From NCBI GenBank assembly GCA_903915465.1, contig CAIWTA010000279.1, positions 1 through 34,385 of the forward strand: a stretch of DNA of 34,385 nt, in the 5' to 3' direction. Shown here piece after piece: positions 28,922 through 31,048 of this stretch. The DNA is from an uncultured Bacteroidales bacterium. GTDB taxonomy: Bacteria; Bacteroidota; Bacteroidia; Bacteroidales; FEN-979. Made by a program: the position numbers and the translations under genes. The notes under the pieces were generated by a model that saw only the letters and a list, made by a program, of their open reading frames with translations, was not told where the DNA came from and made no database searches. How positions within the stretch are numbered: position 1 is the stretch's first letter; each line of letters starts with the position of its first letter.

Positions 28922-29341
28922 TTAATTGCCGTATCGTACCGTCCATTTCAGGTTTTGCAAAGAATCAAGCGGGAATTCCATCCTCTTTAATATTATATAT
29001 TTCGATCGAACGGAATCCCATGGGTGCTTTTCGAAGGTTCCGGAAGCAAGAAAGAAAAATGATATTATGGAATCTTTGTTTTGGCTTATGATTTCATCCC
29101 ATTTTTTCTCACTTGAAAGTAAACCAATAGTATTTGCAAGGAGTTTCGTCACCTCAGGCCGATTTTGCTGAAGAGTGGTATCAGGATAATTTAGCTGATA
29201 AAAAACCAGGAGATCCTTGTTTGTGTTGTTGTTAACAAGAATCGTATAAGTAGGCTTCGTTTCAGGCATATCACTTTTTACACAAGAAGTGAAATCCAAA
29301 CCCAGGATGATAATAAGTAAAATGATTATTTGTTTTTTCAT
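28922..29341 (-). CDS. Small lipoprotein of unknown function
   Basis: Protein of 139 residues. The signal peptide ends in a lipobox with Cys20 (DFTSC), so the mature protein of about 120 residues should be lipidated. The mature part has a beta-rich start (TYTILVNNNTNKDLLVFYQ), a charged middle, and ends LKWTVRYGN. I do not recognise a family. The gene begins 42 bases after the stop of the subtilase-like gene in the same direction, so the two are probably co-transcribed. A partnership with that protein is inference from position only. Confidence 0.75.
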   Translation of the reverse strand: MKKQIIILLIIILGLDFTSCVKSDMPETKPTYTILVNNNTNKDLLVFYQLNYPDTTLQQNRPEVTKLLANTIGLLSSEKKWDEIISQNKDSIISFFFLASGTFEKHPWDSVRSKYIILKRMEFPLDSLQNLKWTVRYGN

Positions 29342-29383: not shown

Positions 29384-31048
29384 TTATTTTTTTGTTTTTG
29401 CTCTGCTAATGTTTTCTGCAAGTTTTAGTGCTTCCAGCGCATTGACAACTCCCCCCGTTTTTGATAACATGGAAAAACCAACTTTTGTTTTTTCAAGAGA
29501 TTTAAGGTTTGGGAGTGTCACTTTCAGTTCAGGATGGAGAGTAGATGAGGCTAACAAGATATCTTTAAGTTCAATCGCTGTAAGCTCAGGATAATATGAC
29601 CATACCAATGCAGCAACACCTGATACAACAGCGCATGCCATTCCTGTGCCAAACGAAGTTCCATACTTGTCTCCAGGATAAAGAGAAATTATTTTTACAC
29701 CTGGAGCAAACAAATCCACTTCCTGCTTTCCGTAATTTGAAAATGCCGCACAAAGCTCCTTGTCAGCTTTCATGGAAGAGGCTCCGACAGTGATCCAATT
29801 CTCTGCTTTTGTGCCATCCAGGAACTTATTATCGGGGAAATAGTCGGCCTCATCCAGGTTCTTTGCCTCATTCCCTGCTTCATGGATGATCAGGACATTG
29901 TGAATTCCGGCAAACGTAACTGCTTCATCAATCCAATTTTTCTGTGGAGAAAAGGTCTTTCCTATGCTAAGGTTAATAATATTTGCACCATTTTCCACGG
30001 CATACCGGATGGCAAGCGCCACATCTTTATCCCGTTCATCACCTTTCAGCGTTACCCTTAGTACCATGAGCTCAACATTCTGAGCGACACCTTCAACTCC
30101 GGATTTGTTATCTCTGCAGGCGCCGATAATTCCGGAAATCATTGTTCCCTGGGCAGGAAACGGTCCTTTGACATCATTATTCCCATACTTTATGTCAGCA
30201 ATATCTTCCGGATTATCTCCAATGATTTTTCTTGGTTCGAATTCCAGGTTCAGATATTTTTGAAGGTATAAAGTTGTTTTTTCCTTCATTTCCGGCAATG
30301 TCCTTTTTGTAAATCCTTGACTGTAAAGGCCGATCATGAAATCCTTGGCGGAGATGACATACGGACGTGTAGAAGAAATACCATAAACATCACGCTCTGT
30401 AAAAGTCGTCTGGTCAAGATGGACCTCTATTACACTTTCCGCTTCATTCAATTTCTTTTCAAAAACTTCGGTATTAAATCGTAATATCTGGAATTTTGAT
30501 TGTTCTCTTTCATAAAATTCTCTGCACCGGACGTATGTTTTATATTCGTTTTGTTGGTCCGCCGGAACATTATCCAGGGATTTGATGTCCTTAAACAACG
30601 GATTTAGTTTCCTGTATATCCTGACCTGTTCAAGGTTCTCATATGCTATGTTTTCTCCACTTCCATTTCCAAGAAAATTCCATCCATGGAGGTCATCAAT
30701 GTATCCGTTCTTATCATCATCAATGCCATTGTCAGGGATTTCATCTTTATTGACCCAGATTCGACCTTTCAGATCAACATGATTGATATCAACGCCACAA
30801 TCAATCACAGCTACCACAATTTTTTTCCCGGGGGGCTTACCTTTTAAAAATTCCTCATAAGCACGGTTTACGGATGCTCCCTGAATCCTGGTTTTTTTAG
30901 AATCAGAATTATACCAGTTCAGCCAGTTTTTGTCAAGCGAATCAACTGTTGAAACCGGGTTTGCTTGCTGTTGAGGCATTCCTGCCAGATCAAGAACAGA
31001 GAAGAACAGGCACAGGAGTGAAAGGAAAGGCAGAATTATTTTTTTCAC
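29384..31048 (-). CDS. Exported subtilase-fold protein lacking catalytic His and Ser
   Basis: S8 (subtilisin-like) protein of 554 residues starting with GTG at 31046-31048. A signal peptide covers about residues 1-23. The Asp motif AVIDCGVD is intact (Asp83), followed by the calcium-loop-like DNGIDDDKNGYIDD (106-119) usual in Bacteroidetes S8 members. At the His motif the sequence is AQGTMISGIIGA, with Gln300 (codon CAG) in place of His. The oxyanion Asn is kept (HEAGNEA, Asn393). At the Ser motif GTSMAxP it reads GTGMACAVVSGVAAL, with Gly469 (codon GGA) in place of Ser. About 215 residues separate the Asp and His positions, a large insertion. The frame is open throughout and the rest of the fold looks conserved, which suggests a maintained non-catalytic protein rather than a decaying gene. 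Confidence 0.88.
   Translation of the reverse strand: MKKIILPFLSLLCLFFSVLDLAGMPQQQANPVSTVDSLDKNWLNWYNSDSKKTRIQGASVNRAYEEFLKGKPPGKKIVVAVIDCGVDINHVDLKGRIWVNKDEIPDNGIDDDKNGYIDDLHGWNFLGNGSGENIAYENLEQVRIYRKLNPLFKDIKSLDNVPADQQNEYKTYVRCREFYEREQSKFQILRFNTEVFEKKLNEAESVIEVHLDQTTFTERDVYGISSTRPYVISAKDFMIGLYSQGFTKRTLPEMKEKTTLYLQKYLNLEFEPRKIIGDNPEDIADIKYGNNDVKGPFPAQGTMISGIIGACRDNKSGVEGVAQNVELMVLRVTLKGDERDKDVALAIRYAVENGANIINLSIGKTFSPQKNWIDEAVTFAGIHNVLIIHEAGNEAKNLDEADYFPDNKFLDGTKAENWITVGASSMKADKELCAAFSNYGKQEVDLFAPGVKIISLYPGDKYGTSFGTGMACAVVSGVAALVWSYYPELTAIELKDILLASSTLHPELKVTLPNLKSLEKTKVGFSMLSKTGGVVNALEALKLAENISRAKTKK

Follow-up and report, generated by a model that had tools for sequence, protein, structure and literature searches.

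The window analysed here is an entire contig of 34,385 bases (C279) from a draft genome of 4.07 Mb in 329 contigs, with a completeness of 98.95. It bears genes that we take to be rpoB, rpoC and tuf, and on that naming the contig is therefore chromosomal. Its minus strand carries a gene for a protein of the S8 family, whose frame contains no internal stop in the ORF reading, followed by a gene for a small lipoprotein-like protein (Table 1). The S8 protein matches PF00082 (Peptidase_S8) over residues 74-502 (E=1.8e-40; 139.5 bits against a curated cut-off of 21.8). This was the sole family returned by the Pfam scan, which gave no match to the I9 prodomain, a type of domain that can escape Pfam when it is weak. 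Judging from the look of its N-terminus, the protein is probably exported to the periplasm or the surface. Upstream of the gene, at 31108-31075 on the minus strand, TTG is followed after 23 nt by TAATTTTG, which ends 26 nt before the GTG; the arrangement, which has a long spacer, resembles the promoter consensus of Bacteroidota. A sigma-70-type site with a 12/12 match was also observed within the subtilase coding sequence (30936-30908, minus strand), but as three such sites were counted against 6.9 expected by chance, it is probably meaningless.

Table 1. Features of the S8 gene and its downstream neighbour in the window
Feature	Position	Strand	Basis
Gene for the probable subtilase-fold pseudoprotease, 554 codons, GTG start	29384..31048	-	ORF, Pfam, structure model
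Signal-peptide-like N-terminus, about residues 1-28	30965..31048	-	sequence by eye; helix 2-18 in model
Asp83, catalytic Asp kept	30800..30802	-	homologue alignments
Cys84, private, beside Asp83 (elsewhere mostly Ser or Gly)	30797..30799	-	homologue alignments
Helical insertion, about residues 136-265, separating the Asp element from the His element; common to the aligned family	30254..30643	-	alignment and model
Gln300 (CAG) replacing the catalytic His	30149..30151	-	homologue alignments
Leu334 replacing a near-invariant Pro; presumed S2/S4 loop (1bh6 alignment and BPN' numbering)	30047..30049	-	
Ile362 replacing a near-invariant Phe; presumed S1 wall (1bh6 alignment and BPN' numbering)	29963..29965	-	
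Glu390 replacing Ala/Gly/Ser, three residues N-terminal of the oxyanion Asn; presumed S1 wall (1bh6 alignment and BPN' numbering)	29879..29881	-	
Asn393, oxyanion Asn kept	29870..29872	-	homologue alignments
Phe466 replacing mostly polar Ser/Asp/Asn/Gln, immediately preceding GTS	29651..29653	-	homologue alignment
Gly469 (GGA) replacing the catalytic Ser	29642..29644	-	homologue alignments
Ala473 replacing the near-invariant Pro that follows the catalytic Ser	29630..29632	-	homologue alignments
Lipoprotein-like gene, 139 aa, conserved Cys20, 42 nt past the S8 stop	28922..29341	-	position-only link to the S8 gene

Homologues were collected with the window protein as the query, at E<=1e-60 in the order (matches in 60 of 393 genomes) and at E<=1e-100 in the class (151 of 395), its own genome being counted each time. 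The matches listed at these two thresholds, together with L091 and L034, make up a set of 217 aligned proteins; three duplicates of the window (L001, L092 and L174) and the loci L185-L265, which belong to the synteny, Rhs and viral comparisons, were left out of the counts. Among the matches listed, 213 of the 217 read D-H-N-S at the catalytic triad and the oxyanion Asn, three are partial, and the window protein is the one D-Q-N-G case. The three partial proteins are truncated (two lack the Asp end and one lacks the Ser end) and keep their remaining key residues intact. The triad-keeping relatives, which are widespread, resemble the window protein in length, N-terminal segment, helical insertion, calcium-like loop and C-terminus; the nearest, L005 (545 aa; 54-55% amino acid identity), carries the motifs EHGT and NGTSFSCP. 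In a first set of full-length others, the His and Ser columns were each invariant (140/140), and among the matches listed 216 proteins span both columns, of which 215 retain both residues, the window protein being the exception.

In the alignments with homologues and with solved subtilisins, QGT of the window protein falls on HGT, and its GTG falls on GTS together with the helix that follows. These alignments bear out the original prediction, made from the letters alone, that Gln300 and Gly469 stand in the places of the catalytic His and Ser, and they agree with it, as does the ORF reading, that Asp83, Asn393, the calcium-like loop NGIDDDKNGYIDD and the intact frame are kept. With one residue of the triad left and the oxyanion Asn present, the protein is predicted to be incapable of S8 catalysis.

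Subtilases with a DDDNNGY-type loop are carried by many IMG/VR viral contigs (L193, L197 and L219-L261), and in all 32 viral stretches aligned the His and Ser of the triad are both present. In the alignment of these 32 with L034 (A6), 32 of the 33 subtilases read D-H-N-S and one does not reach the Asp column. A viral scan with L034 as the query found no relatives. The contig of L034 (CALPVI020000059.1) is labelled 'Actinomyces viscosus', and its subtilase groups in the tree with the same-class genomes of the window, so that the contig is probably mislabelled or mis-binned. Homologues of about 40% identity at 89% query coverage also occur in three plasmid records, the 1.85 Mb Vibrio replicons NZ_CP046066, NZ_CP046163 and NZ_CP045356, at positions where the PLSDB table, itself incomplete, lists no gene.

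The structure of the protein was modelled twice. A first model, built from 9 sequences, had a mean pLDDT of 63.9, with residues 264-302 below 50 and residue 300 of low confidence; its PDB matches were to subtilases, such as 3vv3 (E 5.4e-15). The replacement model, built from 34 sequences, reached a mean pLDDT of 70.7 and superposes on 8coy_A with Z 38.4 (rmsd 2.4 over 310 residues), on 3vv3_A with Z 37.6 over 294 residues and on subtilisins with Z of about 32; this fold match and the above-threshold Pfam match both assign the protein to the subtilase fold. In this model, the strand 77-83 terminates at Asp83, the helix 300-309 begins at Gln300 and the helix 468-485 has Gly469 as its second residue, so that the three residues occupy, as modelled, the places of the canonical catalytic elements. 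The original prediction had noted that Ser465 lies close by and had nevertheless set the register at Gly469, a choice that holds in the model, where Ser465 closes the strand 461-465. Residues 393-396 have pLDDT below 50. Residues 136-265 are mostly helical, an insertion also present in triad-keeping relatives. Among solved structures, the best sequence match is 3vv3 (E 2.8e-32). By their PDB titles, 3vv3 (deseasin MCP-01) and 8coy (Plasmodium SUB1) are proteases; they have the fold in common with the window protein, which differs in its lack of His and Ser and in the long helical insertion that separates its Asp element from its His element.

The loss of His and Ser is accompanied by further private changes at the same site, beyond those first reported: C84, L334, I362, E390, F466 and A473. 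Among the matches listed, ten residues of the window protein (C84, P252, Q300, L334, I362, I382, E390, F466, G469 and A473) are absent from the other 213 full-length proteins, the truncated ones being omitted from this test, and eight of the ten fall within 48 of 466 columns that constitute a catalytic and substrate-cleft set (Fisher p=2.8e-7, for a set chosen with the private residues already in view). This set consists of seven short segments, defined by the catalytic residues and subsites of subtilisin through the 1bh6 alignment; its presumed S2/S4 and S1 labels follow the BPN' numbering. No other homologue of the larger set has more than four private residues in the cleft set (mean 0.25). 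In a smaller set of 141 sequences, eight of 12 private residues lie there (p=2.6e-6), the next highest count being five in L166. As sequences without close relatives gather more private residues, the comparison between sequences is biased, but the contrast between the inside and the outside of the cleft within the window protein is not. Plain windows around D83, H300, N393 and S469 gave p values of 0.0025-0.012 at a radius of 1-2 and 9e-5 to 0.0035 at a radius of 3-8; after removal of Q300 and G469, they gave 0.004-0.04 at a radius of 3-8 and the non-significant values 0.2 and 0.33 at a radius of 1-2. At a radius of 7-8, the triad-keeping but deeply diverged L126, which has many private residues everywhere, shows 5-6 against the 6 of the window protein.

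The conserved columns and the identities to clade-mates point the same way. Among the 140 full-length others, 82 columns are at least 95% conserved, and the window protein departs from them at six (H300Q, P334L, F362I, V373I, S469G and P473A). Its identity to 16 clade-mates, a measure independent of the private residues, is 0.477 within the cleft set, compared with 0.659 among the mates (lowest 0.601), and 0.601 over the remaining core (residues 77-130 and 300-505), compared with 0.605. In the N-terminal segment, the helical insertion and the C-terminus, the values are 0.477, 0.316 and 0.439, compared with 0.503, 0.306 and 0.433 among the mates. At the level of sequence, the changes are local to the active-site cleft, and elsewhere in the core the degree of conservation matches that of the relatives with a complete triad.

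The whole case is one gene in one genome, and the rival that survives best is a pseudogene in early decay: a useless protease that lost its active site and drifts, its frame intact by chance. In its favour, the gene is a lone copy, and a whole-genome protein search found no full-length S8 match in the other 42 genomes of the family, four congeners included, so that the gene is dispensable in the family. Drift would, however, hit conserved columns alike, whereas seven of the 23 columns with at least 90% conservation are changed within the cleft set and one of 79 elsewhere, a count independent of the private residues. Nor does the gene bear a stop or a frameshift, and the relaxation, as read from this one sequence, is confined to the cleft set. 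The ratio of first- and second- to third-codon-position divergence between the window gene and eight relatives is 0.49-0.57, compared with 0.37-0.60 for pairs among them; third positions differ by 0.57-0.66 between the relatives and are presumably near saturation. The terminal branch of the window protein (0.51) resembles those of the other lone tips of its clade (0.49-0.70; fork support 80, with the inner order unsettled). Since a drifting gene would lose conserved residues everywhere, and here the damage is local, the cleft alone being relaxed or re-selected while the rest of the core is normal, these observations favour a maintained pseudoprotease over a decaying gene, and we consider the pseudogene unlikely. 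The original prediction of a maintained pseudoenzyme is thus supported by a double loss unique in the set, cleft-focused changes, an intact frame, an unaccelerated branch and a conserved remaining core. It had also suggested looking for Gln and Gly in orthologues, and such sharing is not seen: among the matches listed, Gln occurs in none of the 216 others, and no Gly stands at the Ser column in the 215 others that extend to it. Judged from this one sequence, the loss of catalysis would be old enough to have allowed about eight cleft changes to accumulate.

An alternative hypothesis is that the protein is still a hydrolase, or has become a different enzyme, with a new site built from the acidic pair Asp83/Glu390 or from one of Ser465, His389, Cys84 and Cys472. 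New chemistry can arise in pseudoenzymes, and both Cys84 and Glu390 are private and located in the old active site. Against this, Ser465 ends a strand in the model instead of opening a helix, and His389 and Cys472 are already found in 125 and 13, respectively, of 140 triad-keeping relatives, so that neither is a compensating change; a new active site therefore appears very improbable. A sequencing or assembly artefact, for which the draft state of the genome might speak, can practically be dismissed, as eight separate in-frame substitutions are scattered along an open frame and yet converge in the cleft of the fold, on a contig that also carries what we take to be RNA polymerase and elongation factor genes.

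The origin of the gene was also considered. Duplication beside an active paralogue is unsupported, since the two other PF00082 matches of the genome are different proteins on other contigs (C283 and C187), with different architectures and with His and Ser motifs by eye. Nor is there any sign of recent transfer in the composition, the GC3 of the S8 gene (0.374) lying inside the range of seven other window genes (0.355-0.425). In six genomes of the genus and family, no S8 match was found within 8-9 kb after valS, and no match to the TPR or comEC-like genes of the window within up to 1.5 kb before it; the thioredoxin-like gene of the window has a weak match before valS in two of the six. As these genomes lack matching valS flanks, they offer no shared site for testing a recent island.

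The lipoprotein-like gene downstream has no Pfam family above the cut-off. Matches to it were found in 25 of 393 genomes of the order and, by profile search, in three of 43 genomes of the family, its own genome counted in both. In the five genomes that appear among the order-level matches to both proteins (G128, G200, G342, G422 and G423), the two are on different contigs, so the adjacency is not repeated there. The lipoprotein family (the window protein and those at L093, L204, L205, L207, L208, L210, L211 and L212) has a conserved Cys, has no Pfam family above the cut-off in the members scanned and repeatedly follows Rhs-type ORFs, whose C-terminal domain bears a HEYGHxLQS motif. By reading, six of eight loci with flanks (L093, L204, L205, L207, L208 and L210) adjoin Rhs-type or HEYGH ORFs, the exceptions being L206 and L209. 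Both ORFs scanned with the NCBIfam Rhs core model match it, that of L208 below the cut-off, and five Rhs-type ORFs scanned gave no Pfam family above the cut-off. HEYGH is invariant in the seven sequences chosen for alignment. At L211 (G347:C1:168000-186000), nine lipoprotein and seven HEYGH matches alternate over 18 kb behind one long Rhs-type ORF, and this stretch is a cassette array. The HEYGH-domain ORF and the lipoprotein may form a toxin/partner pair that seems to be undescribed. PMC3482391 describes metallopeptidase toxins of the HExxH type linked to Rhs, Tox-MPTase1-5. The HEYGH domain was not found in the genome of the window, nor in G002 and G019, both of which have a lipoprotein match, while the same query matches six of nine genomes. 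The gene directly upstream of the window lipoprotein is the S8 gene and not an Rhs toxin gene; the lipoprotein thus resembles an orphaned member of a family that is mostly linked to Rhs, located behind a dead protease.

Among known systems, the closest analogue is CspC of C. difficile, a pseudoprotease that regulates germination and carries D105, T170 and G485 at the triad positions, according to PMC6636752. The two proteins share the subtilase fold, a retained Asp and the change of Ser to Gly, whereas His is replaced by Thr in CspC and by Gln here. CspC also contains a prodomain and a jelly-roll domain, and the cspBA-cspC locus encodes the Csp proteins, which act in spores (PMC6636752, PMC12880746); CspC pairs with CspA in a heterodimer of pseudoproteases, which is proposed to relay germination signals to the active CspB (PMC12880746), and relatives in other families retain the triad (PMC6636752). 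The window protein instead has a helical insertion and no I9 match in the Pfam scan, and no subtilase is adjacent to it, in contrast to the Csp locus with its active CspB. It scores 47.2 bits with the NCBIfam CspC model NF040808 (cut-off 675) and 128.4 bits with the mycosin model TIGR03921 (cut-off 278.75). CspC is absent from the best 50 structural matches listed for the model, which carries no weight. With a score below the Csp cut-off and no adjacent subtilase, the window protein is not a Csp protein, although by analogy it may work like one.

Dead subtilases seem little described in bacteria, as far as the open-access literature of one library goes: the bacterial cases of subtilisin-like pseudoproteases are, by title, from C. 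difficile or a relative, and no pseudoenzyme, pseudoprotease or inactive subtilase of Bacteroidetes/Bacteroidota was found there. Under non-peptidase homologues and subtilase, the bacterial paper that surfaced reportedly concerns SprP of Pseudomonas aeruginosa.

Taken together, the likely explanation, resting on a single sequence, is a pseudoprotease of the subtilase fold that is maintained, specific to its lineage and probably exported, and in which both the catalytic His and Ser were lost and other cleft residues altered while the scaffold was conserved. With its signal-peptide-like N-terminus and remodelled cleft, the protein could plausibly have a binding, chaperone or decoy role, either periplasmic or surface-located. 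On the model of the dead subtilases CspC and CspA, it might bind a peptide or another protein within or close to the altered cleft, thereby sequestering, sensing or regulating a partner, and the neighbouring lipoprotein would, from its position, be the first candidate partner. A more speculative option, which we regard as doubtful, is that the two proteins form a shield that captures or blocks incoming effector proteins or peptides, an ancestral protease having turned into a non-catalytic part of a defence or receptor; it is suggested by the adjacency of the two genes and by the lipoprotein relatives that often follow Rhs genes with HExxH C-terminal domains.

If the maintained pseudoprotease is the right reading, catalysis would have been lost independently here, within a large family whose other examined members retain the triad as far as they extend, and the loss would be recorded in a compact group of changes in the cleft. 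The protein would then offer a natural experiment on the role of a subtilase scaffold that has stopped cutting.
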